The notes under the pieces were generated by a model that saw only the letters and a list, made by a program, of their open reading frames with translations, had not been told where the DNA came from and did no database searches. This document shows positions 10,563 to 36,004 of a stretch of 36,055 bases of DNA, one piece after another; the stretch's first letter is position 1; each line of letters opens with the position of its first letter. A program made the position numbers and the translations under genes. This DNA comes from Bdellovibrionales bacterium (GTDB taxonomy: Bacteria > Bdellovibrionota > Bdellovibrionia > Bdellovibrionales > UBA1609), in assembly GCA_020435005.1 (NCBI GenBank), contig JAGRAE010000009.1, forward strand, positions 1 to 36,055, given 5' to 3'.

Positions 10563-10984
10563 AATTTACCTCCAAAGAAAATATTTATAAAGGTCACGGC
10601 TAAAATACCTGTTGCAATAAAACATGATGTAGCAACAATAGATCTTGGAGAAAGACGGCTGATCCCACAAATACCATGCCCACTAGTACAACCATTAGAA
10701 ATTGTAGTGCCAAAGCCTACAAGCAAGCCGCCAACGGCTACCCCGACTAGGGAACGGTCTACACTCTCAGACATGACTGAAAAACCTGAAGGTTGAATAA
10801 GTAAAGCACCGACAATCATTCCTAAAATAAAAGCTATCCGCCAAAATAAATCCCAAGATTTCGCCCGCAGGGCTCCGCCAACTATACCACTGACTCCTAA
10901 AACTTTTCCATTAGACCAAAGCATTCCGGCAGCTGATAAGCCAATTAAAACACCACCTAATATAGGGTATAAAAACTGAGTCAT
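10559..10984 (-). CDS. YeeE/YedE-type sulfur transport half-protein, first of a split pair
   Basis: A membrane protein of 141 aa with about four hydrophobic segments. Residues 97-108 contain the YeeE/YedE signature NGCTSGHGICG with two cysteines (C99, C106), which in TsuA-type proteins line the sulfur-compound pathway. GGAAG precedes the ATG. It follows the ETHE1-rhodanese gene by 27 bases and overlaps the next half-transporter by 4 bases, so the three genes form one operon. It resembles the PmpA/PmpB pair of BigR-controlled sulfide-detoxification operons, but no BigR-like gene is present here. Confidence 0.85.
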   Translation of the reverse strand: MTQFLYPILGGVLIGLSAAGMLWSNGKVLGVSGIVGGALRAKSWDLFWRIAFILGMIVGALLIQPSGFSVMSESVDRSLVGVAVGGLLVGFGTTISNGCTSGHGICGISRLSPRSIVATSCFIATGILAVTFINIFFGGKL

Positions 10985-11011
10985 ATTTTTCTTCCTTTAA
11001 TGTTTTTTGTT

Positions 11012-12022
11012 TTAGGTATTACCTTTATGAAAGCCGCCATCTAAGTGTCCTACTTTTTCCAACTTATTTTCCTTTGCAATTTTTATTGCAAGTGCTGATC
11101 TTTCACCATAAGCACAATAAAAAATAATCATATCGCCTTTATTGTAAGCTTGCATAAGACTACTGTTAGGATCACCGATGGCGTGAATTAAATCTTTGTA
11201 GGGAATATGTACAGCACCAGGCAACATCCCAGTTTTCCCTATTTCCGCAGCCTCCCTTAAATCAACTAGTAAAAAAGAATGTTTGATATTTTCTAGGTCT
11301 GATCTGTTAAAAATAATTGATTTATGTAAGCTTTCCTTCAAACCAGTACCAGTTTTTAGATTTGCGGGAACAGCCACATCCATTAACTTAGGGTTAGGCA
11401 AATTTAGATTATTCATAATTTCTATGAATTCTTCACAAGTTTTACCAGCAAGTCGTGGATTTTGCTCTATTTCCCTACCTATAGTAGAGAAGTTCTCACC
11501 TTTATAATCATGGCCAGGACAAACAACTGTATCAGCAGGTAAGATAAATAATTTTTGAGTTATAGATTCATAAAGTTGTTTGGCACTTCCATTTTGAAAA
11601 TCTGTACGCCCGTTGCCACGAATAAAAAGAGTGTCACCAGTAAATATAAAACCTTGAGTGTAAAAGCAGTAAGATTCTATGGTATGTCCAGGGGTATAAA
11701 TGGCTTTTAACTCAAAACCATCTACTTCAAGGCTGTCGCCATCTTTAATTCTTTGACTGGCTAATTCAACGGCAGACTCTTGACTCGCAATAATCATACA
11801 TTTGGTTAATTCCCGCAGTCGACTTAAACCTGTAAAATGATCGGCATGAATGTGTGTATCTAAGGCTTTTATTAACCTTAGGTTATGACTGCCTAAAAAT
11901 TGCAAATAGTCATCTACCCCCTCAAGTACTGGATCAATAATAATTGCATCTTTGCCCTCAGCTGCCGCCAAAATGTATGTAAATGTCTTCGAAGTATCAT
12001 CAAGAAATTGTTTTAGTATCAC
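11012..12022 (-). CDS. ETHE1-like persulfide dioxygenase fused to a rhodanese domain
   Basis: The protein has 336 aa. Residues 1-235 are a metallo-beta-lactamase fold with metal ligands H57, H59, D61, H62 (THIHADH), H113 (PGHT), D130 (TGDTLF) and H171 (CPGHDY). That spacing is typical of ETHE1 persulfide dioxygenase rather than glyoxalase II. Residues about 250-336 are a rhodanese domain with active-site C303 in CAYGERSA. The fusion is the Blh-type enzyme that oxidises glutathione persulfide to sulfite and can transfer sulfane sulfur. The GTG start has AGGAG 7 bases upstream. It is the first gene of the operon with the split YeeE pair, and its upstream region contains AT-rich palindromes. Confidence 0.93.
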   Translation of the reverse strand: MILKQFLDDTSKTFTYILAAAEGKDAIIIDPVLEGVDDYLQFLGSHNLRLIKALDTHIHADHFTGLSRLRELTKCMIIASQESAVELASQRIKDGDSLEVDGFELKAIYTPGHTIESYCFYTQGFIFTGDTLFIRGNGRTDFQNGSAKQLYESITQKLFILPADTVVCPGHDYKGENFSTIGREIEQNPRLAGKTCEEFIEIMNNLNLPNPKLMDVAVPANLKTGTGLKESLHKSIIFNRSDLENIKHSFLLVDLREAAEIGKTGMLPGAVHIPYKDLIHAIGDPNSSLMQAYNKGDMIIFYCAYGERSALAIKIAKENKLEKVGHLDGGFHKGNT

Positions 12023-12073
12023 GGGCTTTCTCCTTTTAAACTAAAAACCCCTCTTAGAAATTTATAATTTATT

Positions 12074-12110
12074 GATATATAGGTTACTTAATATATAGCT
12101 AGAAATCTAG
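12074..12110. promoter_or_regulatory. two AT-rich palindromes upstream of the persulfide dioxygenase operon
   Basis: ATATAT at 12075-12080 and 12091-12096 form a spaced inverted repeat. The perfect palindrome CTAGA-AA-TCTAG lies at 12099-12110. Both are 50-90 bases upstream of the GTG start on the minus strand. They could be operator sites for a sulfide-responsive repressor of the ArsR type encoded elsewhere. This is inference from position; in AT-rich DNA the first repeat could be chance. Confidence 0.3.
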
Positions 12111-12124
12111 ACGGATTAGACTTT

Positions 12125-12232
12125 CAGCAGATGTGTTTTTTCATAAATTTTTAAAAAATGGGCTTTCTTAATGGCAACTTAACAAAACATTTGGTTGGTT
12201 AGCTGACGTTCTTCCAGTAGCCATTGCACCCT
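12125..12232 (-). pseudogene. remnant of a low-molecular-weight phosphatase gene
   Basis: About 40 bases at 12191-12232 match the intact phosphatase gene near 9940-9980 at roughly nine in ten positions, apart from a short deletion. The shared core is GTTCTTCCARTAGCCATTGC, which encodes part of QWLLEERQL on the minus strand. A second short match (AGCAGATGTG at 12127-12136 versus AGCGGATGTG in the gene) suggests a longer, decayed copy. The rest of 12023-12349 contains only the promoter palindromes and the terminator of the following gene. Confidence 0.6.
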
Positions 12233-12286
12233 TATTAAATTATTTAGATTTATTGAGACAATTATTGATTTTTTACTTACGGTCTA

Positions 12287-12320
12287 AAATAAAAAAAGCA
12301 CTCCTGGAGGGCAGTGCTTT
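12287..12320 (-). terminator. Rho-independent terminator after the collagen-like lipoprotein gene
   Basis: Perfect 8-bp arms AAAGCACT (12295-12302) and AGTGCTTT (12313-12320) surround a GC-rich loop, extended by CC/GG pairing. On the minus strand the stem is followed by a run of seven or more T. It lies 30 bases after the stop of the minus-strand gene at 12350. A shorter T-run on the other side could give weak termination in the plus direction too. Confidence 0.85.
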
Positions 12321-12349
12321 TGATTTATTGATTTTCTACATTTTTTATC

Positions 12350-14032
12350 TCAATCTACATTTTGATATTCAAACTCAATGGGCTCACTCATCGGTTGACA
12401 AGTCATCTCGTATTCTCCTTCCAGGGAGATGAGTCCATAGAAGGTGAAAAATTCATTTAGTGTTTGTGCATGTCCTTCATATATTTCATAAGCGTAATTG
12501 TCTTCTATTTTGTCATAGATTCCATAGTAACTAGTTGAAAAGCTAATAGATATTTTATTAATATCCTGATGGTTGTTCATGTAAAAATTTATTTTATTAG
12601 TTTCTCCGGTATTAAGTAATTGATCACTTTCAATACTTCCTATAGATGTTTTTAGTTTTTCTAAAGCAAATTGCGGCGCAAAAAGTATTTGGGAAACACT
12701 TGGAAAAAAGTTGTCTTTAGCTATTTTTTCTTGAGTTGACTTTCTGTAAATATCTACTAGCTCTTGATTGTTTGTAGATTTCTCTGAGCTTATAAATTCA
12801 ACATTGTTTATGTTTATAGTATTATATAAATCCAAATATAGATTTTTATTACTGTGGAGGTAAGTAATTTTATTTTTATTAAAATCATTTGGCCCATTTT
12901 TGTTTTCTAGTTGAAGATTATTCTCAAAAGCTTCAAGATATCCTCCGTATGGTACAGCTGCTCCCATTGGGTAGCTTCCATCAATTCCAAAGTAAGAAGC
13001 TAGAGTCTGTGTAGTTTGTGATTTTAATTCGCTTTGACTCATAGTTTCCCTACTTGAATTTAAACCGTCTCTAGTAAAGTAGTTCAACGTCAATTCATTA
13101 GTATGATTATCTGAGTTTATTTTATATGAATACTTATCTTCTTCTTCGTTTATAGCTGATAAAATAAACTTTTGATAAGGCATATTAAAAATTAGAAATT
13201 CGTAGTAATTTAAGCCAATACTTCTTTGTTCATTATCTAGAGTCAATTTTGCGTTCCAAAATCTTTCGGGTCGAGTGCTTTCACATTTTACAAAGTCTCT
13301 CTCCAAAGCACTAATCACTGAGTAGGCAAAGGCTCTGGCTTCGTTATCTAAGACTTCATCAGATCGCTGATCTTTTTGCTCTAAATGTCTAAAGACCAAG
13401 TGTGCAGTTTCGTGCAGCATACTGATCATAAGTTCGTTAATTTGCTTTCTCTCGTATTCACTAAACATTTCTAGGATGTCTTTCTTGAGGTTTTGTGCCA
13501 TTCGCTCTGTGTCCCTGAAGGGAAAAGTTGTGAAGGTGAGGTAGTAATTTCTAGTGGCTAAAATTTTTCCGGTTTTTGTATTTACATCGTATTCATAGTC
13601 AAACATAAGGTCTTTGTTAGTCCGAGTGGGCTTGCCTTTTTGTTCTTCGATGTTTTCAATGACATCAGCTATCTTATTTTTATTCCAGCCATTGGGTAAA
13701 TTTTTGTAGAGGATACTTGAAGACAGGCGGATTCTTTGACTCAATTTGTCTTTAACATATTCGAGGAGTGGCCCCGAAGTGTCTTTTGTTGCACCACCTC
13801 CACCACTATAGCCACCATCAACTTCGGAAGGGGGAAGGTTTACAGTTTGTCCTGGTTCGCCCTTTTCGCCAGGCATTCCTTGAGGACCTATTGTACCAGG
13901 TAAGCCATTTGATCCAGTCGCCCCCTGTGGTCCTTGAGAACCTTGTTTACCTGTAGGTCCACGACAACCAATAAAGCATATGCTTGAAAATGTAAGTATT
14001 AATATTAAATTTTTTATTTTTGAAAGTTTCAT
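12350..14032 (-). CDS. lipoprotein with collagen-like stalk and a HExxH metalloprotease motif
   Basis: The protein has 560 aa. The lipoprotein signal ends in the lipobox FIGC (C23). A collagen-like tract follows at residues 25-61: twelve uninterrupted Gly-X-Y triplets, including GPQG and GEKGEPG. A Gly-rich linker (73-80) leads into a large domain of unknown family. In it, H207-E208-T-A-H211 (SMLHETAHLVFRHLE) is a zinc-protease HExxH motif. NEARAFA with E231, 20 residues later, is a plausible gluzincin-type third ligand. I infer a surface-anchored zinc peptidase or a relic of one; the rest of the domain (about 250-560) is unassigned. AGGAG precedes the ATG. A strong terminator follows. The small exported protein gene lies 48 bases upstream on the same strand. 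Confidence 0.8.
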   Translation of the reverse strand: MKLSKIKNLILILTFSSICFIGCRGPTGKQGSQGPQGATGSNGLPGTIGPQGMPGEKGEPGQTVNLPPSEVDGGYSGGGGATKDTSGPLLEYVKDKLSQRIRLSSSILYKNLPNGWNKNKIADVIENIEEQKGKPTRTNKDLMFDYEYDVNTKTGKILATRNYYLTFTTFPFRDTERMAQNLKKDILEMFSEYERKQINELMISMLHETAHLVFRHLEQKDQRSDEVLDNEARAFAYSVISALERDFVKCESTRPERFWNAKLTLDNEQRSIGLNYYEFLIFNMPYQKFILSAINEEEDKYSYKINSDNHTNELTLNYFTRDGLNSSRETMSQSELKSQTTQTLASYFGIDGSYPMGAAVPYGGYLEAFENNLQLENKNGPNDFNKNKITYLHSNKNLYLDLYNTININNVEFISSEKSTNNQELVDIYRKSTQEKIAKDNFFPSVSQILFAPQFALEKLKTSIGSIESDQLLNTGETNKINFYMNNHQDINKISISFSTSYYGIYDKIEDNYAYEIYEGHAQTLNEFFTFYGLISLEGEYEMTCQPMSEPIEFEYQNVD

Positions 14033-14080
14033 TTTAGTCTCCTATGTTTCAATTTTTATTCCAGCTAATTGTTTAAATTA

Positions 14081-14320
14081 TTAATTTACATTGGCTAAGG
14101 TGATGGATTTGCGCCTAGATTTGTCACTTGGGTTTTTGCTCAGCAACAATGGGGCAACATTTCGGCTTTCTTTGAGGAACTCTTGTTCCCACTTTTTTTG
14201 CTCCCAATTTGCAACTTTAATTTTTTGAATTAATTTTTTTTGACTAGAAGGTTTAGCGGCAAATGCAGAGTTTGAGCCTAAGACGCTTCCAATAAGTAAA
14301 ACCATAATCAACGTTTTCAT
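14081..14320 (-). CDS. small exported protein of unknown function
   Basis: About 79 aa from the ATG at 14320, which is preceded by AAAGGAG at correct spacing. A start 8 codons upstream exists but has no ribosome site. The signal peptide is MKTLIMVLLIGSVLGSNSAFA, with likely cleavage after AFA. The mature part of about 58 residues is basic, with repeated KK/WEQ segments (KVANWEQKKWEQEFLKES). I recognise no family. The ribosome-site context (GGAGAtaaaaATG) is nearly the same as that of the downstream collagen-like lipoprotein gene (GGAGActaaaATG), and both are probably co-transcribed. Confidence 0.65.
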   Translation of the reverse strand: MKTLIMVLLIGSVLGSNSAFAAKPSSQKKLIQKIKVANWEQKKWEQEFLKESRNVAPLLLSKNPSDKSRRKSITLANVN

Positions 14321-14450
14321 TTTTATCTCCTTTATTAAGTACAAGACAAAAATAACGCACAGAGATATAAAGTTATAGATAAAATTAATTAATTATGAGA
14401 TAATTTAGGTATTAAAAATTAATAAAACAAATTAACTATATGATATTGTT

Positions 14451-15248
14451 ATGAAAAACGTATTTTCTTACTCGAGCTATAATACCTATTTATCCTTTCG
14501 ATTTAAGGCTGAAAGGGGCCTAAAGGCCAAGGCATCTAAGGTCATGGGCATACAAACTTCTTATCTATCTAGGGTTCTCAATCATCAGGCCGATTTGAGT
14601 CTTGAACAAGCATTTACCTTAAATGATTTTTTTTATCACGACTCCCAGGAAGCTGAATTCTTCTTGTTATTAGTTCAAAAAGATAGGGCGGGAACAAAAG
14701 CTCTAAAGGATTACTTTTTTGAGAAGATAAATAAAGTTATCGAGCAACGATCTCAGCTAAAAAGCCGTTTAGAAATAAAAGAGGAACTCTCACCTCTTGA
14801 ACAAGCTAAATACTATAGTCATTGGATTTATAGTGCTATTCACATGGTTTGTTCGGTTCCAGGATTAAATAAAAAAGAAAGTTTGCATAAGGTTTTTAAT
14901 TTGCCTCCTCATGTAATAAATGAGGTTATAGATTTTTTAACAAAGGCGGGCCTACTAATAGAAAATAAAGATGGTTACGAGTTAGGTTCATCACATATTC
15001 ACTTACCCAGTGATTCTCCATTTATTCTACAGCATCACGCAAACTGGCGACAAAAGTGCATTAGAGAATTTGATTACCACAAGCCCGATGATTTCCATTA
15101 TTCTGCTGTATTTAGTCTTTCTGAAGTAGATGCAAAAATAATTAGGGAAAGAATTCTAGAGGTTGTACAACAAAATATTAAGACGGTGATACCATCGAAA
15201 GAGGAAGTTGTATATTGTAGTCTCATCGATTTTTTTAAACTGGCCTAA
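14451..15248 (+). CDS. TIGR02147/DUF4423-type regulatory protein
   Basis: The protein has 265 aa, normal for the TIGR02147 family. The N-terminal YSSYNTYLSFRF and the helix-turn-helix-like segment MGIQTSYLSRVLNHQADLSLEQAFTL fit the family pattern, as does the central winged-helix-like SVPGLNKKESLHKVFNLPPHVINEVIDFLTKAGLL. Such proteins are expanded in Bdellovibrio and Fibrobacter and often lie beside genes for secreted proteins. It is divergent from the small exported protein and collagen-like lipoprotein genes. The shared region holds palindromes TATAA-AG-TTATA (14366-14377) and AATTAATTAATT (14383-14394). A role in controlling those genes is inferred. No Shine-Dalgarno sequence precedes the ATG. 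Confidence 0.85.
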   Translation: MKNVFSYSSYNTYLSFRFKAERGLKAKASKVMGIQTSYLSRVLNHQADLSLEQAFTLNDFFYHDSQEAEFFLLLVQKDRAGTKALKDYFFEKINKVIEQRSQLKSRLEIKEELSPLEQAKYYSHWIYSAIHMVCSVPGLNKKESLHKVFNLPPHVINEVIDFLTKAGLLIENKDGYELGSSHIHLPSDSPFILQHHANWRQKCIREFDYHKPDDFHYSAVFSLSEVDAKIIRERILEVVQQNIKTVIPSKEEVVYCSLIDFFKLA

Positions 15249-15300
15249 AAATTATTTAAAGGGTCATTTTCTTTGTCGCTTCAGTTACTTTAGAATTTAA

Positions 15301-16329
15301 TTACAATTTAATTTCTAACTCAATAGAACCACCAACAGTGACTTTAATATGGTAGTGCTCACTTTTATGCTTATTGAGTTGAATAGTAGGGCTTGAATAA
15401 ATTTTGGTTTTATTTTTATAGGTAACTTCCCATTCATATATTAAATCAGAATCTTCGTCCTCAACAAATTCAGTTTGCACGGAAAGTTGCCATTTATTTT
15501 TACGATCTTGAATTTGAATAGAAGATTGACTTTGAGCGAGTTCTTTTAAGTTTATAAACTTTTGATTTTTTACAGGCCCTTCATAAAATCCCTCGTTGAG
15601 GGGGGTGTTGCGCCAATCACAATGGATATGAGTTTTATAAATCTGATAAAAGGCGGCGCCATGCTCAGTACAATATTCAGCGAGTTCCTTTATACTAACT
15701 TCATTTACGTGAAAGTCTATGGCGTCACCATACATATGTCTTGACCAAGTAGCTCCACCAATAGATTGATTGTAAGCAGGTCCACGAAAGGCACTATGTA
15801 TATGTACTGCACGGTTTAAGTCTTCGCGCATTTTTTGAATATAAAAAAGTGCATCAGGGGAAAATAGGGCGAGATCTCCCTTGTGTAGCTGCATTAACTC
15901 CTCAACTTGGAAATTTGTTGTTAGCTTCGTGTTTTTTGGTGTCGCTTTTAAATCTAAGTAATATTTTGGAATTAAATATTGATTGATATCAAAATGGGTT
16001 GGGAAATTTATAGACTGTTGTGGATCTTTATAGTTATATTCATTTTGCTTTTGATCATCATCAGCTTCAACGACACTCAAACAATTCTCATGGTTATCAT
16101 TTGGAGAAAAATAACAAACTTTTAGTGTTTCAGAAATTGAACCTAGGTCATTGCTATCTTCTGGTATATTGTCTTCTTTTCCTGGGTTTGGATTTTGGGG
16201 CTCTGTTGGTGGGGTCTCTGGAGATTTTTTTAGGGGTTGATTTGAGTGAAATTTAGGTTGAAAGCCTTTACCACAAGCCACCATCAATGAAGCGCAGAGT
16301 AGGAGTGGAAAATATGTTTTTACATTCAT
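15301..16329 (-). CDS. lipoprotein with M15-type (D-Ala-D-Ala carboxypeptidase-like) peptidase domain
   Basis: The protein has 342 aa. The lipobox MVACG gives lipidated C19. A Pro/Glu/Asn-rich linker (about 30-65) is followed by a peptidase domain around residues 135-245. The zinc motif SRHMYGDAID (H198, D205) and HIHCDW (H236) match the M15A pattern SxHxxGxAxD...HxH. The HSAFRGPAYNQSIGG segment is also typical. The expected activity is cleavage of cell-wall peptides, of its own wall or, in a predator, of prey wall. The C-terminal ~90 residues look like an added beta domain (YEWEVTYKNKTKIYSS). It converges with the TIGR02147 gene. The 155 bases upstream separate it from the divergent nitroreductase. 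Confidence 0.88.
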   Translation of the reverse strand: MNVKTYFPLLLCASLMVACGKGFQPKFHSNQPLKKSPETPPTEPQNPNPGKEDNIPEDSNDLGSISETLKVCYFSPNDNHENCLSVVEADDDQKQNEYNYKDPQQSINFPTHFDINQYLIPKYYLDLKATPKNTKLTTNFQVEELMQLHKGDLALFSPDALFYIQKMREDLNRAVHIHSAFRGPAYNQSIGGATWSRHMYGDAIDFHVNEVSIKELAEYCTEHGAAFYQIYKTHIHCDWRNTPLNEGFYEGPVKNQKFINLKELAQSQSSIQIQDRKNKWQLSVQTEFVEDEDSDLIYEWEVTYKNKTKIYSSPTIQLNKHKSEHYHIKVTVGGSIELEIKL

Positions 16330-25317: not shown

Positions 25318-26901
25318 ATGAAAAGTCTTATTGTGTTTTTATGCTTAGTCATGAGTTGTATGGTTGCCAATGCCGCCAAGACATTTGTGTATTGTTCTGA
25401 AGCAAGTCCTAAAATTTTTAATCCACAATTGGGGACGGATGGCCCGACTTTTAATGCCAGCTCTCGACCCATATACAATAGATTGCTAGAATTTAAAGCA
25501 GGTACTACCGAAGTCATTCCTTCTCTGGCAGAATCTTGGACCGTAAATGACAAAGGAACACTTTATACATTTAAACTGCGCAAAAATGTAAAGTTTCATA
25601 CCACAACATTTTTTAAACCAACTAGATCATTCAATGCTGATGATGTGTTGTTTTCTTTTGATCGCATGCGTTTAAAAGAACATCCCTATCACAAAGTGAA
25701 CGGTGGTCTTTATCAATATTTTGATGGAATGAATATGGGTGCACTCCTTAAAAATATTAAAAAGCTAGACGATTACACTATAAGCTTTGAACTTACTAAA
25801 CCAGAAGCTCCGTTTCTCGCCAATTTAGCCATGGATTTTGCGAGTATTTTATCGAAAGAATATGGAGACTTTTTGGCAAAAAAAAATCAAAAAGACAAAA
25901 TTGATTTAGAACCTGTAGGAACAGGTCCTTTTATATTTAAAAAATATGTAAAAGATAATGTAATACGTTATACCGCCAATAAGGAATACTTCCTTGGAGC
26001 TCCTAATTTAGATAATCTTATCTTCTCAATCACTCCTGATGCCAATGTGCGCTTTCAGAAGTTAAAAGCGGGTGAGTGTCACTTTATTGCCGAGCCCTCT
26101 CCAGCCGACATACCAAAAATTGAGAGCGATAAAAAGTTTAAAGTTGAAAGCGCTGACGGTCTTAATGTAGGTTATTTGGCTTTCAATACAAGAAAGAAGC
26201 CTTTTGATAATGTCTTAGTGAGACAGGCTATAAATTTAGCTTTAAATCGTGATGCCTACATTGAGGCTATTTATTTGGGAAAAGCTAAAAAAGCAAAAAA
26301 TCCAATTCCACCCACAATGTGGAGTTACAATAAAAATGTTAAAGCCTATGAATACAATCCTGAAAAAGCCAAAAAACTCTTAGCTCAGGCTGGTTATAAA
26401 AATGGATTTTCTGCTGAGTTGTGGACATTGCCTGTTTCAAGACCTTACAACCCCAACGGCAAACGTATGGGAGAAATGATGCAAGCGGATTTAGCCAAAA
26501 TTGGCATCAAAATAAAGTTAGTCACCTACAAGTGGGCGGAGTATTTAAAGCGCGCTGCCAACGGTGAACATACATTGCTGCAATTGGGATGGACTGGTGA
26601 CAATGGAGATCCCGATAATTTTCTAAATACGCTATTAGGTTGTGATGCTGTAGAAAACGGAAGTAATTTTGCAAAGTGGTGTGATAAAAAGTTTCAGTAT
26701 CACATTGAACAAGCTAAAATTGTGACTCAACTTGATCAACGCATAAAACATTATATGAAGGCTCAGGAAATATTTAAAAATCAAGCTCCTTGGGTGACAC
26801 TTGCTCACTCGACAGTATTTAAAGCTATGTCTAAAAAAGTAAAAGGTTACAAAGCGAGTCCTTTTGGTGCGGAATCTTTTTATGGAGTTGTATTAGAATA
26901 G
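25318..26901 (+). CDS. dppA: dipeptide ABC transporter periplasmic binding protein
   Basis: The protein has 527 aa. The signal peptide MKSLIVFLCLVMSCMVANA has a likely cleavage after ANA. The mature protein is a family 5 solute-binding protein that closely follows Escherichia coli DppA as I remember it: TFVYCSEASP, the GTTEVIPSLAE block, NADDVLFSFDRM, APFLANLAMDFASILSKEY, IPPTMWSYN, and GWTGDNGDPDNF. It delivers dipeptides (and in some species haem) to the DppBC pore. AAGGGAG precedes the ATG. It is the first gene of a plus-strand run through dppC into aroB. The ATPase genes dppD/dppF are not in the window. Confidence 0.95.
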   Translation: MKSLIVFLCLVMSCMVANAAKTFVYCSEASPKIFNPQLGTDGPTFNASSRPIYNRLLEFKAGTTEVIPSLAESWTVNDKGTLYTFKLRKNVKFHTTTFFKPTRSFNADDVLFSFDRMRLKEHPYHKVNGGLYQYFDGMNMGALLKNIKKLDDYTISFELTKPEAPFLANLAMDFASILSKEYGDFLAKKNQKDKIDLEPVGTGPFIFKKYVKDNVIRYTANKEYFLGAPNLDNLIFSITPDANVRFQKLKAGECHFIAEPSPADIPKIESDKKFKVESADGLNVGYLAFNTRKKPFDNVLVRQAINLALNRDAYIEAIYLGKAKKAKNPIPPTMWSYNKNVKAYEYNPEKAKKLLAQAGYKNGFSAELWTLPVSRPYNPNGKRMGEMMQADLAKIGIKIKLVTYKWAEYLKRAANGEHTLLQLGWTGDNGDPDNFLNTLLGCDAVENGSNFAKWCDKKFQYHIEQAKIVTQLDQRIKHYMKAQEIFKNQAPWVTLAHSTVFKAMSKKVKGYKASPFGAESFYGVVLE

Positions 26902-27914
26902 TGATAAAAATTTTAAGACAGCGTTTCTTTGCTTTTTTTCCAACTTTATTAGGCGTTTCTCTATTGGCCTTTTCTTTGATTCGCTTAGCACCAGGTGATC
27001 CCGTAATGCTCATGTTGGGAGAGCGTGGTGGGACACCTGAAGTTTATGAAAAAATGCGCACTAGTTTAGGTTTGGATCAACCCATCCTATGGCAATACCT
27101 AAAGTATATTGGGCAAGTTTTAACTGGAGATTTTGGCACTTCCATAGTTTCTCAACGACCGGTTTTAGAAGAATTTTTCGATCGTTTTCCCGCTACTGTT
27201 GAACTGGGTTTGAGTGGGATGATTTTTGCTATTTTACTAGGTGTACCTTTTGGGTTGATATCTGCTGCCAAAAGAAAAAGCCCAGTTGATTACACACTTA
27301 TGGGTGGAGCCTTGTTGGGTTATTCCATGCCTATTTTTTGGTGGGCATTAGTGCTTATCATGTTCTTTTCAGTAAACTTGGGTTGGACACCTGTCTCGGG
27401 TAGAGTCAGCGTTATGTACGATGTTGAAGCTGTAACTGGTTTTTTATTTATAGATTCGTGGTTCAGTGAGGATTCCTGGGAAATATTTAAAAGTGGTTTG
27501 CACCACCTATTATTGCCGGCTCTTGTATTGGGCACGATCCCATTGGCCGTCGTTGCCAGAATGACCCGTTCTAGTTTACTCGAAGTTTTAAGAGAAGATT
27601 ATATTAGAACGGCAAGAGCTAAGGGTTTAAATGAAAAACGTGTAATTGTAACTCATGCTTTGAAAAACGCATTAATTCCAATTGTTACTGTGATAGGTTT
27701 GATGTTGGGTACAGTTTTAACAGGGGCTATTTTAACAGAAACCATTTTTTCATGGCCTGGAATTGGCCGTTGGTTTGTTGCCAGTGTGGAGGCCAGAGAT
27801 TACCCCGTAATTCAAGGAGGGATTATTCTCATTGCTCTCACCATTATGCTGGTAAATTTAATAGTTGATTTGATTTATGTGTGGGTCAATCCCTTACTTA
27901 GGGAGCACTCATGA
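26901..27914 (+). CDS. dppB: dipeptide ABC transporter permease
   Basis: An inner-membrane protein of 337 aa, the usual DppB length, with about six transmembrane segments. The N-terminal RLAPGDPVMLMLGERGG and the permease EAA region near DYIRTARAKGLNEKRVIVTHALKNALIP are typical of the family, as are TGYSMPIFWW-like YSMPIFWWALV and ILTETIFSWPGIGRW. The GTG start shares a base with the dppA stop (TAGTG), and the stop overlaps dppC (ATGA), indicating tight translational coupling. Confidence 0.95.
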   Translation: MIKILRQRFFAFFPTLLGVSLLAFSLIRLAPGDPVMLMLGERGGTPEVYEKMRTSLGLDQPILWQYLKYIGQVLTGDFGTSIVSQRPVLEEFFDRFPATVELGLSGMIFAILLGVPFGLISAAKRKSPVDYTLMGGALLGYSMPIFWWALVLIMFFSVNLGWTPVSGRVSVMYDVEAVTGFLFIDSWFSEDSWEIFKSGLHHLLLPALVLGTIPLAVVARMTRSSLLEVLREDYIRTARAKGLNEKRVIVTHALKNALIPIVTVIGLMLGTVLTGAILTETIFSWPGIGRWFVASVEARDYPVIQGGIILIALTIMLVNLIVDLIYVWVNPLLREHS

Positions 27915-28759
27915 AAAAATTTTGGCGAAGACTAAACCAAAATAAAGGTGCTGTAGTTGGACTAGTTGTATTAGCCATTTTTATTTTGATTTCTATTTTG
28001 TCACCACTACTGGCACCTTATGACCCACATCAAATTTTTGATGGAAAATTTAATCTTCCACCACTGTGGAGTGGGGGCGACAATGCTCATGTCATGGGAA
28101 CCGACGATATTGGTCGAGATGTATTAAGCCGTTTGATTTATGGAGCGAGAATTTCATTAACTGTGGGTTTTTTAGTGGTAACTATCTCATTAGTTGTCGG
28201 TGTTAGTTTGGGTCTTCTTGCTGGCTATTTTGGAGGATGGGTCGATCAAATTATTATGAGAGGCGTAGATATTTTAATGGCATTGCCAAGTATATTATTG
28301 GCCATTGTCATTGTCGCCATTTTAGGACCTAGCCTACAAAATGGAATTATTGCTGTTAGCATTGTTTACTTACCTAATTATATAAGAGTGGTAAGGGGAG
28401 CGGCCATGGCCGAAAAAAAGAAAGCTTACGTAGACGCTACAAAATGCTTTGGTGCAACTCACTGGCGACAAGCGGTCATTAACATTTTACCCAATTGCAT
28501 GGCTCCCATAATTGTTTTAGCTAGCTTGGGTTTTAGTGAAGGAATTCTCAATGTTGCGGCTTTGGGATTTTTAGGTTTGGGAGCTCAGCCGCCCATTCCT
28601 GAATGGGGAGTGATGTTGGCCGATGCAAAGGCTTTTATCGAAACTTCACCCTGGTTGGTGAGCTTGCCAGGAATTTGTATTTTATTAGTTGTATTGTCTT
28701 TTAATTTGCTTGGCGATGGTTTAAGAGATGCCTTGGATCCAAAATTAAAGGGTCAATAA
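27911..28759 (+). CDS. dppC: dipeptide ABC transporter permease
   Basis: An inner-membrane protein of 282 aa with about six transmembrane segments. It matches DppC through NKGAVVGLVVL, VMGTDDIGRDVLSRLIYGAR, AGYFGGWVDQIIMRGVDI, the EAA-loop region around KCFGATHWRQAVINILPNC, and the end GDGLRDALDPKLKGQ. It forms the pore with DppB. It starts in an ATGA overlap with dppB. aroB begins only 2 bases after its stop, so a transport operon runs directly into a shikimate gene. Confidence 0.95.
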   Translation: MKKFWRRLNQNKGAVVGLVVLAIFILISILSPLLAPYDPHQIFDGKFNLPPLWSGGDNAHVMGTDDIGRDVLSRLIYGARISLTVGFLVVTISLVVGVSLGLLAGYFGGWVDQIIMRGVDILMALPSILLAIVIVAILGPSLQNGIIAVSIVYLPNYIRVVRGAAMAEKKKAYVDATKCFGATHWRQAVINILPNCMAPIIVLASLGFSEGILNVAALGFLGLGAQPPIPEWGVMLADAKAFIETSPWLVSLPGICILLVVLSFNLLGDGLRDALDPKLKGQ

Positions 28760-28761
28760 AT

Positions 28762-29823
28762 ATGAATTTTGATGCCGTCACAAAATTTTACGATTACTTA
28801 CCAAAGTTAGAAGATTTAAAAAATATTTTATATCCTCAACAACAACGTGAATTTGTACTTTTATTTGCTGAGGAATTATTAGAAGTAGAAACGGCTAATA
28901 AATGGATTCAACAATTTTCCTTAAAGTATCAAGTTCAAAGTGGTGAGAAATTAAAATCCATTGAAGAATTCCCCCATCATATTGCTAACATCACAAATTT
29001 ACTCTCAACTCAATCCCACAAAAATTTAACTCTCGTAGTTTTAGGGGGAGGAACAGTTGGTGATTTTGGTGGATTTGTGGCCAGCATTTACAAAAGAGGC
29101 ATTGACCTCATCCATATTCCGAGCACTTGGTTGGCCGCAATAGACTCCGCTCACGGTGGTAAGAATGCATTAAATGTAGGTTCTGTTAAAAATCAGGTAG
29201 GTACCTTCTATCCGGCAAAAGCAGTTATTTTAGTTAAAGAACTTTTTGCTTCTTTAAGCCAAGATCCAGTGAGGTCTTCGTTGGGGGAGCTAATAAAAAT
29301 TGGCATTGTAAATTCACCAAGTTTAATTGAGTTTATGAAAGACACAGAAGCCAAGCCAGAAGATTATTTGTGGGAACTCTTACCACAGGCCATTATGGCA
29401 AAAATGAATATTGCCCTGCAAGACCCTTATGAGAAAACAGGTCTTCGCCAACAATTAAATTTAGGTCACAGCTTAGGTCATGTACTTGAAACCCTTTGTG
29501 GTTGGCCTCACGGCTGGGCAGTAGCTCAGGGACTTTATTTTTCTCTGCACTGGAGTTTAGAAAAAAAAATAATCAATAAGGAAAGCCACAGTGACATTTA
29601 CAATTTTTTGCAGCGTTTTTTTGCAGAAAAACAAAGTCCACAAGGCGAGTCACTACCGAAGTTAACAGAAGTGGATTTCTTAAAAGTGCTAGCTGGTGAT
29701 AAGAAAAAAATGGGCAATAACACCATTAATTTTGTGTTTATCCAGCAACTTGGCAAAGTCGTAATTGAAGCCGTTACAGAACAAGAAATGATGAGCGAAG
29801 CTCGCCGTCAAGGTTGGCTTTAA
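28762..29823 (+). CDS. aroB: 3-dehydroquinate synthase
   Basis: AroB makes 3-dehydroquinate from DAHP (step 2 of the shikimate pathway). The 353-aa protein has the NAD site GGGTVGDFGGFVASIYKRG (95-113), the substrate loop PSTWLAAIDSAHGGK (120-134), and metal ligands E176 (SLGELIK), H236 (LNLGHSLGH) and H250 (GWPHGW). The family's usual HGE is HGW here, and DSSVGGK is DSAHGGK, so it is divergent. The related cyclitol synthases share the fold, but the linked aroA, fusion gene and aroC support AroB. It begins 2 bases after dppC, and its stop shares TTAA with the convergent Cys-rich protein gene. Confidence 0.88.
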   Translation: MNFDAVTKFYDYLPKLEDLKNILYPQQQREFVLLFAEELLEVETANKWIQQFSLKYQVQSGEKLKSIEEFPHHIANITNLLSTQSHKNLTLVVLGGGTVGDFGGFVASIYKRGIDLIHIPSTWLAAIDSAHGGKNALNVGSVKNQVGTFYPAKAVILVKELFASLSQDPVRSSLGELIKIGIVNSPSLIEFMKDTEAKPEDYLWELLPQAIMAKMNIALQDPYEKTGLRQQLNLGHSLGHVLETLCGWPHGWAVAQGLYFSLHWSLEKKIINKESHSDIYNFLQRFFAEKQSPQGESLPKLTEVDFLKVLAGDKKKMGNNTINFVFIQQLGKVVIEAVTEQEMMSEARRQGWL

Positions 29824-31844
29824 TCTGTAACTCTTAGGTCGCCACCTTTGTCGTTTGTAATATTAGTGGGGCTATAGTCTTGTGCATAAACCTGAGCGAG
29901 ACCACACTTGGCCGATGGCAACTGATAATCCATGCCATTAATTTCAAAAATATTTGCTGTTATTTTACTTGGGTCGCAGGTCCCACTATTAGGTCTTTCA
30001 CAAATTTTATTTTTAACATACAACTGTCCGTTAGTAGGCGCATCTTTGCTTTCGTGGGAGGCAAATATTCGACCTTGATCACTGAACTGGACGGTTAAAC
30101 TAGCCTGTGCAGGGTTTGTAGATTCAAAAGTGAGAGTTTTGTCAGTTTGGTTAACTTTTATATTAGCGATAGTTTCTCCATTGCCAGATAGTAAAGTAAT
30201 GGGCGAGTATACATCCTTTGTATTAGAAATTAATCGACGTCTTTGGTTAAATTCGTTATGGCAAACACTTTTAAAGCTTTTAATTGTATCAGAAGATGAA
30301 TAAGCAACTTTATTTTCAATGACTTTAATACACTTATCTAGTTCTGAGTAGCAATGTCTAGGTACATTTGCTATTGCTCTTTGATTAAAAATTAAAGTTT
30401 CTAGGTTTTGGTAAAAAGGTTCATTAATAGTTATTTGTTCCTCAAATTCTTTGATCATATTTTTAACCATATCTGCATAATCTAAATTGTCACAGTAACT
30501 TTCTAAATTTGGGGTCACAAATTTTCTTTGGAAGATTCTATGGCAAACTTTTGTGTACTTAGTCTTTGTAGTTTCATCTGCTTGATTGATCTCTTCGTCA
30601 TCTAATTCTTTAATTTTATTTTTCAAAATATTAATATTTGTATTGAGTACCTTTGCTTCATATCCTGGGCAAGGATCTTCTGCATTTTTATTCCAATGCT
30701 CAAATGCCGTCTGACAAATTTGGATGGCCTCATCTTCAGGGCAACGATTACCGCTACACAGCTTTGCTTTTTTAGATAGACTTGTTTGTTTTAATTGTTT
30801 TAATCGCGGTTCAATAACATCTTTGTATACATCACAGCTGGCTTTGTCTTTACAGCTTTCTTTTAAATTATCATTTAAAATTTCTTGAGATTTCTTTTCC
30901 AAACTTTGCCAAACACTGCTGGGTACATTGATGTCAGCGCAAATTTCTTTTTTTTCCGGGTCAAAATAAAATTTTCTTTCAACTCCCTTACCGTCAACAA
31001 CCGTAAATTGATTGGTAAATTTTTCTACTCCAGTCTCTTGATAGCATTGATGCGTGGTGAATTTAACGTGTTCTGAAAAAGTAGCGCCATCAATTTGAAT
31101 TTGTGGCTCTAATAAGTGTGGATTTTTATTGCATCCCTCTTTGTAAATGTCATGACATTTACCTTGTGTGGTAGATGATATGACAGTTGACCTGGTAGGT
31201 GTTCTAAATTGATCGTTAATTTTTGCAACTCTTTTATTTAAAAAATCACAAGGACTCCCATCAGTTACATCACCACCACAAAGTTCTTGCTGATAAGCGG
31301 TGACAATATCATGAGTAGCTTGAGTATAATTTGGGGGATCGAGTTCAACGTCCTTGCCGGCTTCATGACACCTGGCTGATAATGTTCGTCTATCCTCAAT
31401 GGGCACACAAACATTGCCATAAATAGCTCCACACTTGTAGTTTTCTTTGGCATCAGTTCCATCAATTGAGCAAGGGTAGCCAAAAATGGGACACTTGCCA
31501 TTATCCCTAATTCGAGCCCGGCCACCCACTACACACCATTCTTCAGATTTGTATTCAGCAAAGGCGTGGGGGAATAAGTGTTCAAATAGATTTCCATAGT
31601 AACTTTTTTTACCTTTGAAGCCTTTTTTTTGCATTTTTAACTCAAAATCCAATAAAGTTTTGCGAAGTGCTTGCAAGTAATTGAGCTTGTTGACGCGAGT
31701 TAATAGATTGTATTCAAAAGAATTTAAAAGAGGAGTAAAACCTTTTGTATGGTTATTTAGATTTTTATTTCCCCAAGAGGACCAAGAAGCCAATAGGATA
31801 AAACAAAATAAAATAGGCGACAAAAGTCGGGCCATCGTAAACAT
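29820..31844 (-). CDS. large Cys-rich secreted protein, unknown function
   Basis: The protein has 674 aa. A signal peptide covers about residues 1-25 (core LLSPILFCFILLASW). The mature protein has about 26 cysteines, which implies many disulfides and an extracytoplasmic site. An N-terminal Cys-dense module (about 103-160: EWCVVGGRAR, KCPIFGYPC, YKCGAIYGNVCV) precedes long helical stretches and a C-terminal beta-rich part (about 545-674). I cannot name the family; modules of this type are, to my memory, common in secreted Bdellovibrio proteins. AAGGATG precedes the ATG. It interrupts the aro cluster: convergent with aroB (4-base overlap), divergent from aroA. Confidence 0.8.
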   Translation of the reverse strand: MFTMARLLSPILFCFILLASWSSWGNKNLNNHTKGFTPLLNSFEYNLLTRVNKLNYLQALRKTLLDFELKMQKKGFKGKKSYYGNLFEHLFPHAFAEYKSEEWCVVGGRARIRDNGKCPIFGYPCSIDGTDAKENYKCGAIYGNVCVPIEDRRTLSARCHEAGKDVELDPPNYTQATHDIVTAYQQELCGGDVTDGSPCDFLNKRVAKINDQFRTPTRSTVISSTTQGKCHDIYKEGCNKNPHLLEPQIQIDGATFSEHVKFTTHQCYQETGVEKFTNQFTVVDGKGVERKFYFDPEKKEICADINVPSSVWQSLEKKSQEILNDNLKESCKDKASCDVYKDVIEPRLKQLKQTSLSKKAKLCSGNRCPEDEAIQICQTAFEHWNKNAEDPCPGYEAKVLNTNINILKNKIKELDDEEINQADETTKTKYTKVCHRIFQRKFVTPNLESYCDNLDYADMVKNMIKEFEEQITINEPFYQNLETLIFNQRAIANVPRHCYSELDKCIKVIENKVAYSSSDTIKSFKSVCHNEFNQRRRLISNTKDVYSPITLLSGNGETIANIKVNQTDKTLTFESTNPAQASLTVQFSDQGRIFASHESKDAPTNGQLYVKNKICERPNSGTCDPSKITANIFEINGMDYQLPSAKCGLAQVYAQDYSPTNITNDKGGDLRVTD

Positions 31845-31877
31845 AAATCATCCTTGACATAAATTTATAACATTATT

Positions 31878-31938
31878 TTACAATTCCTAATAACGGGGTC
31901 AACTGTTAGATGGATACAATAAATTGTTAGGATTGTAA
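31878..31938. promoter_or_regulatory. long imperfect inverted repeat between aroA and the Cys-rich protein gene
   Basis: TTACAATTCCTAATAA at 31878-31893 and TTGTTAGGATTGTAA at 31924-31938 are inverted copies differing by one inserted base and one mismatch. The symmetry lies in the only intergenic region between two divergent genes, so it is a good operator candidate. No regulator gene is adjacent. Confidence 0.45.
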
Positions 31939-31985
31939 TAATATTATAATTATACATTTTTTAACCAAAGTGATATCGTAAAATT

Positions 31986-33155
31986 GTGAAAGAATTAAAT
32001 TTTATTGGTTGTTTACCGGCATCTAAATCACTTTTTAATCGATTATTAATAGTGCAAAGTTTTTTTCCAGAATTGATTCTCGAAGGCGATAGCGATTGTG
32101 AAGATGTAAAAATGATGCAACAAGCTCTTGCTCATCTCGGTGGGGAAGATAGGTATGATTGCGGACATGCCGGAACAGTGCTTAGATTTTTGAGTTTTCG
32201 TTTATCGCGTGAACCAGGGGAACATTTGCTAATCGGATCTGAGAGGCTTTTTGCAAGACCACAAGATGAGCTCATAGTAGCTCTACGCCAATTGGGGTGC
32301 CAGGTAGAATTGGGAAAAAATCAATTAAAGATTCTAAGCACGGGTTGGCAACTCATGGGTGATAGCTTACACGTCAGTGCTAAACGCTCTAGTCAGTTTA
32401 TTAGTGGTATTTTATTGAGCTCATGGAAATATGACAAGCCCATTCATATTTCGCCGGGACGAACAATAATTTCACCGGATTATTGGCAAATGACAGTTTC
32501 ATTAATGAAAAAATTAGGCCTACAAGTAGAAAAGTGGGAAAGTGATTACGTAGTTAAACCAACACAAAATTTAACTTTAAAAAAAATAAAAGTGGAACAA
32601 GATTTGAGTAGTGCTTTTGCCATTGCTGCTATTGCAGCAGTTAGGGGCAAGGCTATATTTCAAGAATTCCCAACGAGTTCTTTGCAGCCCGACTCTATTT
32701 TTCCGAGAGTTCTTTCAGAAATGGGAGTTGCAACGAGTTTTGAGAACAATACCTTAAAAATTGAGGCCAATGATTTAAGAGCCATTGATTTTGATATTAA
32801 TTTAGCGCCAGATATGTTTCCCGTGCTTGCCGTGTTAACCGCTCAAGCAAAAGGAAAAAGTCGATTTATACACGGTGAACAACTTCGCTTTAAAGAATCT
32901 GATCGTTTAAAAAATATTTTAAGTCTAATACAAAAAATGAATAAAAGATTTGAGCTCAGGGAAAATATGTTAGAAATTATAGGCAATCCTGAAGTGCACA
33001 AAAATAAAATAACATTCGACTGTCTTCAAGATCATAGATTAGCAATGGCTGCTGGTCTGGCGAAGTATATGGGTTATGATATTGAAATATTAAATCCACA
33101 TGTTGTTACAAAAAGTTTTCCCGATTATTGGGATATTATAGGTACGGCTTTATGA
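31986..33155 (+). CDS. aroA: 3-phosphoshikimate 1-carboxyvinyltransferase (EPSP synthase)
   Basis: AroA joins shikimate-3-phosphate and PEP. The 389-aa protein is shorter than the usual ~430. It starts at GTG, directly before the conserved PASKSLFNR (K14, S15, R19). Other signatures are HAGTVLRFL (usually NAGT), KRSSQFISG, LAPDMFP with the catalytic Asp, and RFKESDRLKN. N-to-H at the NAGT motif is a notable change, but the phosphate- and PEP-binding basic residues remain. Its stop overlaps the start of the fused aroK-D-E gene (ATGA), so translation is coupled. An inverted repeat lies 50-110 bases upstream. Confidence 0.93.
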   Translation: MKELNFIGCLPASKSLFNRLLIVQSFFPELILEGDSDCEDVKMMQQALAHLGGEDRYDCGHAGTVLRFLSFRLSREPGEHLLIGSERLFARPQDELIVALRQLGCQVELGKNQLKILSTGWQLMGDSLHVSAKRSSQFISGILLSSWKYDKPIHISPGRTIISPDYWQMTVSLMKKLGLQVEKWESDYVVKPTQNLTLKKIKVEQDLSSAFAIAAIAAVRGKAIFQEFPTSSLQPDSIFPRVLSEMGVATSFENNTLKIEANDLRAIDFDINLAPDMFPVLAVLTAQAKGKSRFIHGEQLRFKESDRLKNILSLIQKMNKRFELRENMLEIIGNPEVHKNKITFDCLQDHRLAMAAGLAKYMGYDIEILNPHVVTKSFPDYWDIIGTAL

Positions 33156-34978
33156 TTTATATTTTTGTAGGTCATAGAGGAACGGGTAAAAGTCGATTTT
33201 TAAAGCATTTACAAACTTTACTAGAAAAATATCACCAGGAAGTTATTGCTGTCGATTTGGATCAATTGATAGAAATTTATACTCAAAAGAATATAAAAGA
33301 TTTTTTTGAAGAAGTGGGTGAAAGAGTCTTTCGAGATGTTGAACAAAAAGCCCTGTTTAGTTTTTTTAATGATCAAATTGTTGAAGATAAGATCTATCTT
33401 GTAGCCTTAGGAGCAGGTTATAAAGGGGCCTTACCAGAAAATGCCCACATTATCTGGTTGCAAAGGTCTACTGATCACTTGGGACGAATTTTTTTAGATC
33501 GTCCACGTTTGGAAGGACAAGTTTCCCCTCTAGAGGAATACTTTATTCGTTATAAAAAAAGAAATATTCATTATCAAAATCTAGCTGATGAGTCTTTACA
33601 TTTACCTGAGAACTATAAAGAGGTTGATCCATGGCTACCAATATTTTGGGGACTAAAGCCAGGTGAAATAGGTGGTTGTTTAACTTTACTGCCATGGTAT
33701 TTAGAAAGCAAAGATCATGTTAAAAGTTATTTAAGTAAGAGATTGCAATGGGGCGTACAATTTTTTGAGTTGCGATCTGACTTATTAAGTTTACAGCAAA
33801 TACATTGGTTAAAAGAATTAATTCCAGATTCAATGATTTTACTTAGTATTCGTGGCAATAAAGAAATTCCATTTTCAACAATTTATACAGATTGGGCTTT
33901 AGAATTAGGAGCACCCTCGGAAAAAGCTAATATAGTTTCTCTTCATGAACGTAAAGACAGCTTTACTAAAACCGTTGAGACCTTTAAAGACTATAAAGGA
34001 TTACATTGGAAATTAGCAGTAGAAGTCAAGAATTGGCAAGAATTGCAAGAGGGATATGAGTGGTGGCAGGAAGATACTCAAAATCGGAGCTTTTTACCGC
34101 GTTCAACGAATGGCAGATGGAGTTGGTTTCGTCTCTTGCATAAATATAATATGAAGTTAAACTTTTTTCGCGAAGACATTGGTAGCTCTTTAGATCAACC
34201 TTATCTTGTGGATTGGTGCAATTTTAATGAATTTGATCAGAATCAGTTTGGTGCTGTTTTAGGCGATCCCATTCTCCACAGTTGGACGCCAGAAGAACAG
34301 AGACGATTTTGGTCTAAAGACCAATGTAATTCATTAAAGATAAGTCTGAGTGAGGAGGATTGGACACCGCAAAATCTAGGTTTTCTTAAGAGGCTAGGCA
34401 TGAAGTATGCTGCAGTAACCACGCCTTTAAAAAGTAAAGCTTATGAAATTTGTGATGTACAAGATGAATTATCTAATGAGCTTCAAAGTGTAAATACATT
34501 GTTATTTAATAATAATGAAATCTTAGGCATGAATACTGATTTTGAAGGCTTAAAAACCGTTTGTGAGTCACAATTATTACCGCGTCTCAATAAGCCCCTT
34601 GAACAGTGGAAGGTGGGAGTATGGGGAGGTGGCGGTACTCTTGCTATGATTAAAAAATTATTTCCACAGGTTGTGCATTTTTCCGCTAGAACAGGAAAGA
34701 CAGATGTAGAAAAGACTTTTTTTGAGAAACTAAAGCGATCTAATAAATATCACTTTGATGTTTTTATCTGGGCTGTGGGCAGGGAGCGGATTGATCAAGG
34801 TGCCGTAATGCCCTCACAAGATCTCAGTTTTGAATATATTTTAGATCTCAATTATGCAGAAAACTCACCGGGAAAAGAACTTGCTCTCATGCAAGGCACT
34901 CAATATATTAGTGGAGAAGCCATGTTCCTGGCACAAGCTGATCTGCAAAGAAAATTCTGGAGTTCAAGTCTTACTTAG
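33152..34978 (+). CDS. aroKDE: trifunctional shikimate kinase / 3-dehydroquinate dehydratase (type I) / shikimate dehydrogenase fusion
   Basis: The protein has 608 aa from the ATG at 33152; a TTG 24 bases upstream is in frame but lacks support. Residues 1-160 are shikimate kinase: Walker A GHRGTGKS (7-14), D35/D37, GERVFRDVE (R61) and R117 in DRPRL. Residues about 174-355 are type I dehydroquinate dehydratase: FFELRSD (E206), SIRG (R234), H265 in VSLHE, and Schiff-base K287 in HWKLAV. Residues about 366-608 are shikimate dehydrogenase: GDPILHSWTP (S377), TTPLKSKA (K427), GMNTDFEG (D463), glycine loop GGGG (492-495), and the GEAMFLAQA end. Domain order K-D-E equals the last three domains of eukaryotic AROM. 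The dehydratase part is shorter than a free enzyme. It is translationally coupled to aroA; aroC follows 18 bases after. Confidence 0.88.
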   Translation: MIYIFVGHRGTGKSRFLKHLQTLLEKYHQEVIAVDLDQLIEIYTQKNIKDFFEEVGERVFRDVEQKALFSFFNDQIVEDKIYLVALGAGYKGALPENAHIIWLQRSTDHLGRIFLDRPRLEGQVSPLEEYFIRYKKRNIHYQNLADESLHLPENYKEVDPWLPIFWGLKPGEIGGCLTLLPWYLESKDHVKSYLSKRLQWGVQFFELRSDLLSLQQIHWLKELIPDSMILLSIRGNKEIPFSTIYTDWALELGAPSEKANIVSLHERKDSFTKTVETFKDYKGLHWKLAVEVKNWQELQEGYEWWQEDTQNRSFLPRSTNGRWSWFRLLHKYNMKLNFFREDIGSSLDQPYLVDWCNFNEFDQNQFGAVLGDPILHSWTPEEQRRFWSKDQCNSLKISLSEEDWTPQNLGFLKRLGMKYAAVTTPLKSKAYEICDVQDELSNELQSVNTLLFNNNEILGMNTDFEGLKTVCESQLLPRLNKPLEQWKVGVWGGGGTLAMIKKLFPQVVHFSARTGKTDVEKTFFEKLKRSNKYHFDVFIWAVGRERIDQGAVMPSQDLSFEYILDLNYAENSPGKELALMQGTQYISGEAMFLAQADLQRKFWSSSLT

Positions 34979-34996
34979 TGTAGCATCCGTCATCAT

Positions 34997-36004
34997 ATGA
35001 ATAGTTTTGGACAAATCTTTAAAATTCATACATTTGGCGAAAGTCATGGCCCGGCTATGGGTGTAGTTATTGATGGTTGTCCTGCCGGATTAGAGTGGCA
35101 GGAAGATATTCTTAGAAATAATTTGCAAAAAAGACGACCAGGACAGTCTGAAATTGTTTCTGGTCGAAATGAAAGTGATGACTTTGAAATTCTAAGCGGG
35201 GTTTTTCAAGCTAAGACTTTGGGGACTCCAATTGCTATAGTTGTAAAAAATAGAGATGCACAATCTCAAGATTATATAGATAAAAATGGATTGCAAAAAT
35301 TTTCTAATAGAGTTGGTCATGCTGATGATCTTTGGTTTGAAAAGTTTGGACATGCTGATTTTAGAGGTGGAGGCCGTGCCTCGGGAAGAGAAACACTCTC
35401 GCGTGTGATTGCGGGAAGTGTGGCTGAAATGTTAGTTAAACAACTTTCGCCAGAGACTAGCGTTAAAAGTTATGTTCATGCTATAGCAGATTTTACAGTT
35501 GATGATAATAAAAGCACACCATTGGAAAAGCAGGAACCTGTCGTTAATTTTTTAATGAAAGCCAAAGAACAGGGAAAGAGTTATGGTGGTATTGCTGCTA
35601 TCGAAGTAGAAGCGCCTCCAAAATATTTAGGGGAACCTGTATTTAAAAAAATAAAATCAGAACTAACAGCTGCATATATGAGTGTGGGAGCGAGTTGTGG
35701 AGTGGAGTTAGGTGCGGGTTTTAAATCTACAATGGCCGAGGGCAGTGAGTTTCACAATCGAAATCAACAAGAAGTTTATGGTGGCATTCGTGGTGGTATG
35801 TCCACAGGAGAAAACATTTTATTTAAAATTGCATTTAAGCCGACTTCTAGCGTAAACGATGTAGCAAAAAAGGGTCGTCATGATCCTTGTATTGTTCCTC
35901 GCGCTGTACCCGTTTTGGAAGCCATGACTTATTTAGTTTTAGCAGATTTACTTTTATTAAGACGGTTGAACCGAATTCAAACTGCTCCCTTTAATTGCGG
36001 ATAA
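34997..36004 (+). CDS. aroC: chorismate synthase
   Basis: AroC converts EPSP to chorismate with reduced FMN. The 335-aa protein has the first signature HTFGESHGPAMG (12-23), RRPGQSEIVSGR, FRGGGRASGRET (about 119-130), GGIRGGMSTGE, KPTSSV, and GRHDPC near the end. All catalytic motifs are present. The natural end of the domain is near LLLLRRLNRI; the last eight residues and stop (QTAPFNCG) are encoded by sequence matching the end of the 194-bp dispersed repeat. No ribosome site is obvious. It closes the aro cluster. Confidence 0.96.
   Translation: MNSFGQIFKIHTFGESHGPAMGVVIDGCPAGLEWQEDILRNNLQKRRPGQSEIVSGRNESDDFEILSGVFQAKTLGTPIAIVVKNRDAQSQDYIDKNGLQKFSNRVGHADDLWFEKFGHADFRGGGRASGRETLSRVIAGSVAEMLVKQLSPETSVKSYVHAIADFTVDDNKSTPLEKQEPVVNFLMKAKEQGKSYGGIAAIEVEAPPKYLGEPVFKKIKSELTAAYMSVGASCGVELGAGFKSTMAEGSEFHNRNQQEVYGGIRGGMSTGENILFKIAFKPTSSVNDVAKKGRHDPCIVPRAVPVLEAMTYLVLADLLLLRRLNRIQTAPFNCG
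35981..36003. repeat. end fragment of the 194-bp element overlapping the aroC stop
   Basis: The 23 bases starting ACTGCTCCCTTTAATTGCGG match the left end of copy B at 21 of 23 positions and copy A at 20 of 23, by hand count. Similarity stops at 36003. It is either a solitary terminal repeat left by an excised or deleted copy, or the start of a different element sharing the terminus. The remaining bases to 36055 hold only the palindrome ATCAATAA-T-TTATTGAT. Confidence 0.6.

Follow-up and report, generated by a model that had tools for sequence, protein, structure and literature searches.

In bacteria of the phylum Bdellovibrionota, the genes that lead from DAHP to chorismate are arranged in the domain order of the eukaryotic AROM protein. 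Shikimate kinase (K), a predicted 3-dehydroquinate dehydratase (D) and shikimate dehydrogenase (E) are fused into one protein, and in some lineages this K-D-E module is further joined to EPSP synthase (A), while DHQ synthase (B) remains separate. AROM itself contains DHQ synthase, EPSP synthase, shikimate kinase, a type I dehydroquinase, and shikimate dehydrogenase, in that order (PMC6851490). Taken as a whole, the following explanation is considered probable: the cluster forms the operon for chorismate synthesis in a Bdellovibrionota-like bacterium, with its enzymatic activities and co-transcription predicted from sequence, and its match to the AROM order is the product of convergent stepwise assembly, through repeated loss of stop codons in an overlapping operon. 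Most of an AROM seems to have been assembled independently in these bacteria.

The window, meaning the whole 36,055-nucleotide stretch of DNA that was analysed, is an entire contig of a 3.39 Mb draft genome that contains a single shikimate kinase. The first-pass annotation had described aroB, aroA, a K-D-E fusion, and aroC on the plus strand in the order of AROM, with aroA and the fusion coupled by an ATGA overlap, and each of these features was found in place (Table 1). The window aroB scored 236 bits against TIGR01357, under the equivalog cut-off of 305 bits, and aroA scored 240 bits against TIGR01356, under the cut-off of 287 bits (NCBIfam). The K domain is matched by PF01202 in all 19 of the relatives' fusion proteins. 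In the E domain the TPLK lysine and the NTD aspartate are conserved, and the score was 77.6 bits for TIGR00507 versus 19.8 bits for the AROM-type model TIGR01809. Beyond aroC, 51 bp remain before the contig end. Upstream of aroB, genes for a peptide ABC transporter (a binding protein and two permeases) occupy positions 25318-28759. The gap between the stop of the last permease and the start of aroB is 2 bp, and aroB may be transcribed together with the transporter genes. Elsewhere in the window (12350-14032, minus strand), a 560-amino acid protein matches the collagen-like triple-helix repeat PF01391.

Table 1. Features of the aro cluster in the window.
Feature	Coordinates	Strand	Evidence or remarks
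aroB, 3-dehydroquinate synthase, 353 aa	28762..29823	+	PF01761 1.3e-30, PF24621 7.9e-21
gene X	29820..31844	-	between aroB and aroA; without Pfam or NCBIfam match
aroA, EPSP synthase, 389 aa, GTG start	31986..33155	+	PF00275 3.8e-54
ATGA overlap of aroA stop and K-D-E fusion start	33152..33155	+	read in sequence
K-D-E fusion gene, 608 aa	33152..34978	+	domain matches, motifs
K domain, shikimate kinase	33161..33613	+	PF01202 4.5e-9; motifs P-loop GHRGTGKS, DLD, RPRL
D domain, predicted divergent type I 3-dehydroquinate dehydratase	33686..34219	+	profile comparisons, invariant catalytic motifs
E domain, shikimate dehydrogenase	34247..34963	+	PF08501 1.3e-7 (N-terminal domain); TIGR00507 (full domain)
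aroC, chorismate synthase, 335 aa	34997..36004	+	PF01264 8.7e-95; TIGR00033 above cut-off

A single opposite-strand gene had been reported as the only interruption of the cluster. This gene, designated gene X, does interrupt the locus, and among the loci sampled it does so in the window genome only. The distance from the aroB stop to the aroA domain is 2178 bp in the window, versus -4 to 75 bp in 31 other loci, and gene X is absent from the aro loci of the relatives. It encodes a 674-amino acid protein with a signal-peptide-like N-terminal start, and it has a paralogue of 34% elsewhere in the same genome (contig 283). Among 140 genomes searched, 11 others contain weak homologues. Gene X therefore appears to be a local insertion from outside the pathway, belonging to a lineage-restricted family with a secreted-looking product.

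The D domain of the fusion is divergent. At an E-value of 0.01, none of the 19 fusion proteins matched PF01487 (Pfam) in this segment, which spans approximately 180 residues versus 230 in the Pfam model. One reading of this is that the segment is catalytically dead and serves as a mere linker between K and E. Such a loss has precedent, as the dehydroquinase domain of Candida albicans AROM was reported to be inactive (PMC9074039). However, a family profile built from 17 proteins found dehydroquinases as its best matches in the PDB (2ocz and 2egz, E-values 0.004 and 0.007), and comparison of this profile with known type I dehydroquinases by hhalign gave a probability of 90% and an E-value of 1.7e-6. 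When the whole K-D-E fusion was used as a profile, AROM chains ranked first in the PDB. Moreover, the catalytic motifs E-R-D, S-x-H, K, R, and Q are invariant in the alignment of the 17 proteins, and the catalytic Glu, His, and Schiff-base Lys of the type I enzymes correspond to E28, H87, and K109 of that alignment, which are likewise invariant. An alternative enzyme was not found either. A PF01487 search revealed no other type I dehydroquinase in the window genome, and among the 144 genomes of the class that were searched, a type II dehydroquinase (AroQ) was found in no K-D-E genome, including that of the window. The four genomes that carry AroQ are three members of family f7 and G123, which has no K-D-E match. 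Based on profile-profile similarity, the invariant catalytic residues, and elimination of the type II enzyme in K-D-E genomes, it is very likely that the D domain serves as the dehydroquinase of the pathway, and a dead linker is highly improbable. The domain is classed here as a divergent relative of type I dehydroquinase rather than a certified member.

Further genomic analysis revealed that the arrangement is widespread. Of 99 relatives, 88 have the K-D-E fusion. Within the class, 131 of the 144 genomes gave K-D-E matches, a count that falls to about 128 once three f7 genomes with separate K and E are removed. In the rest of the phylum the fusion was confined to isolated genomes, or a handful, of families f23, f26, and f29. 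Across the class the commonest arrangement is B-A-[KDE]-C, and the B-A-K-D-E order is common to all 32 loci compared for junction distances. Exceptions to the gene order were G055, with B-KDE-C-A, and G349, G350, and G023, in which A does not adjoin K-D-E. Family f7 has an unfused A-E-C-K-B arrangement followed by the type II dehydroquinase; its genomes G058, G052, and G063 (L083-L085) belong to the same taxonomic order as the window but carry a different aro gene lineage from the K-D-E genomes. The possibility raised at the outset that no related genome would share the order thus does not hold. The AROM order has a chance of 1 in 120 if five genes are free to assort; with A-K and D-E counted as ready-made pairs the chance rises to about 1 in 6. 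As an isolated coincidence the order is modest evidence. Because the K-D-E fusion, and for the most part the gene order, has been kept throughout the taxonomic order, the cluster is beyond chance.

The first-pass annotation had also proposed a search for four- and five-domain versions. Fusions were counted only if the HMM matches of all domains fell in one frame. Four-domain versions were found: in nine genomes from three groups, a single open frame encodes A-K-D-E and aroB lies immediately before it. Five of these belong to family f10 (1027-1138 amino acids from stop to stop, with a sixth genome interrupted by a contig end), two to f8 (978 amino acids), and two to f26, where the frames of 1149 and 1366 amino acids from stop to stop lie partly upstream of the domains. 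AroB is separate in all of them, the aroB stop lying 8-42 bp from the A domain, and no five-domain frame was found in the 369 genomes of the phylum. Several long frames were rejected as fusions. In G068 (1073 amino acids) A lies in another frame, in G814 (1202 amino acids) a long open frame runs beside another gene, and in the upstream part of the 1366-amino acid frame of G333 B lies in another frame. The lengths in G000 (972 amino acids) and G084 (962 amino acids) correspond to a K-D-E frame continued past its stop codon into aroC. The phylum contains another type of aro fusion as well: in G304 (L285, family f21), E and A domains share one 912-amino acid frame.

The junctions suggest how such proteins may form. 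In unfused genomes the aroA stop mostly lies 5-22 bp before the first residues of K, and sometimes inside them, and in fused proteins the linker between A and K is just 6-15 residues. Because neighbouring genes in the series aroB, aroA, and K-D-E overlap or lie only a few bases apart, a small change at an ATGA-type junction would join two enzymes; loss of the stop codon at the overlap, or a frameshift there, would suffice. It is proposed that a single fusion event produced K-D-E in the lineage ancestral to the distinctive aro gene set of this group. Several later lineages would then have lost the stop codon that separates aroA from K-D-E, leaving a tetrafunctional A-K-D-E protein next to an unfused AroB. 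The A-K-D-E proteins fall in three groups in the A, E, and five-domain concatenated trees, and well-supported branches of the A and concatenated trees require at least two changes. Three separate origins are favoured by the trees, the number of events being our reading of them; a single origin was not rejected (AU p = 0.16).

Since the cluster looks like a half-assembled AROM, the first-pass annotation had suggested that it bears on whether AROM was built in a bacterium and transferred to eukaryotes, or whether the order is convergent. The AROM set used here was fungal only and was read off PDB alignments, with yeast Aro1 serving only as bait for the PDB search. Comparison bacteria came from a genome scan led by an AROM-based B+A alignment, which yielded 80 named bacterial loci. 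Fungal Aro1 (PDB 6HQV, 7U5S) shares with the Bdellovibrionota cluster the order of all five domains and a colinear K-D-E module, whose D domain is a type I dehydroquinase in AROM and is predicted to be one in the window. However, AROM is one polypeptide and the bacterial cluster encodes two or three, with three domains fused in the window and four at most. The D and E domains of the group are divergent, and identity over A-K-D-E is only 22-25%. For all five domains, Chaetomium thermophilum AROM had better matches in ordinary bacteria than in this group (best bits, group versus ordinary bacteria: B, 125 versus 241; A, 126 versus 267; K, 50 versus 85; D, 25 versus 86; E, 47 versus 119). The fused group is monophyletic in the domain trees, with support of 100 for A, 99 for E, 99 for D, and 100 for the five concatenated domains; AROM lies outside it, and in the free trees of the same data AROM sits among ordinary bacteria. 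Joining AROM to the A-K-D-E proteins of f10 was rejected (p = 1.7e-8). AROM is therefore excluded from within the Bdellovibrionota group, and the idea that eukaryotes acquired it by transfer of this cluster is unsupported. The description as a half-assembled AROM holds for structure, as relatives reach A-K-D-E with an adjacent aroB, but not for ancestry.

An older connection was also weighed, in which AROM and the cluster both descend from an ancient bacterial B-A-K-D-E operon, AROM having branched off the stem of the group before the genes of the group diverged rapidly. The full order is identical, and AROM placed on that stem, as sister to the whole group, was not rejected, with AU p-values of 0.355 (A), 0.765 (D), and 0.545 and 0.36 (concatenated). 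Both branches are long, however, and constrained trees can gain by long-branch attraction. In addition, every AROM domain is closer to ordinary bacteria, in agreement with the free trees, and the window E domain fits the general model rather than the AROM one. The expectation that the domains would lie far from AROM was thus largely borne out by the scores and by the rejection of nesting, while placement on the stem was accommodated at p-values from 0.36 to 0.77. Part of the low similarity could be due to fast evolution of a very divergent gene set. On balance a common origin of this kind is unlikely. The related proposal that the fungal order was inherited from a deep shared B-A-K-D-E operon, with the A-K-D-E proteins of Bdellovibrionota as parallel products, is rather unlikely as well. 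We infer convergence over very deep shared ancestry, in line with the comparison of all five domains; AROM would then have been assembled separately, from other bacterial-type genes.

A second bacterial lineage shows a similar pattern. The best match of the AROM-led scan was an acidobacterial MAG, JAJEIY010000024.1 (L169), in which positions 9671-15396 contain aroB, aroA, a K-D-E fusion, and aroC; by eye, the frame directly upstream resembles DAHP synthase. Nine genomes of that acidobacterial class carry K-D-E (the others being L311, L312, and L314-L319), and in each stretch obtained from them A, K-D-E, and C are together, as is B where the stretch is long enough. Most other acidobacteria searched have D-E only, which stood alone in the 12 regions checked. 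The gene order, the three-domain fusion, and the overlap of aroA with the fusion are as in the Bdellovibrionota cluster, but the acidobacterial D and E domains are canonical and concatenated trees separate the two groups, although a joint clade was not rejected (p = 0.117). The acidobacterial K-D-E appears to have arisen independently. It may be asked whether the operon ancestor of AROM resembled this B-A-[KDE]-C cluster instead of the Bdellovibrionota one. With the Bdellovibrionota set left out, AROM grouped with the acidobacterial K-D-E lineage and one more acidobacterium (95/93, five concatenated domains), and the B tree gave the same grouping with a Gemmatimonadales MAG added (95). The consistent clustering of A, K-D-E, and C in the stretches obtained from these genomes, with B where it is reached, points the same way. 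However, the signal comes mainly from B, is weakly supported by D, and finds no support in the A and E trees; the sister acidobacterium (G381) has a D-E fusion only, and the data neither favour nor reject a grouping of AROM with only the acidobacterial K-D-E lineage (p = 0.475). An ancestor of this type is quite improbable.

Other aro fusions were also encountered. The plant dehydroquinase-shikimate dehydrogenase (PDB 2GPT) has D followed by E in one chain, as in K-D-E, and gave a single continuous profile match over D and E. Unlike K-D-E, both the plant protein and the acidobacterial D-E fusions are without an N-terminal kinase. An Oscillospiraceae MAG, JAITGH010000006.1 (L119), contains a B-A fusion in a 738-amino acid open frame (885-3098). 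Fusions of shikimate dehydrogenase and shikimate kinase (E-K), in frames of approximately 410-530 amino acids beside aro genes, were seen in Clostridia (L113, L118) and also within the same phylum as the window (L108/L245 and L248/L276, families f17 and f22).

AROM is usually said to have originated in one fusion event in eukaryotes, as Richards et al. reportedly described in 2006. In a literature search that did not include that work, no published K-D-E or A-K-D-E fusion from bacteria came to light, and the novelty of these proteins is provisional. The finding is larger than first reported. Separate overlapping genes, three-domain proteins, and four-domain proteins, all in the AROM order, exist side by side in bacteria, so that the reason why this order is favoured becomes testable without eukaryotes. 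Natural three- and four-domain proteins are available for comparison of packing and flux with AROM, which is a homodimer formed through its B and D domains. Bacterial kin of AROM are better sought in the acidobacterial lineage, where the pattern recurs.
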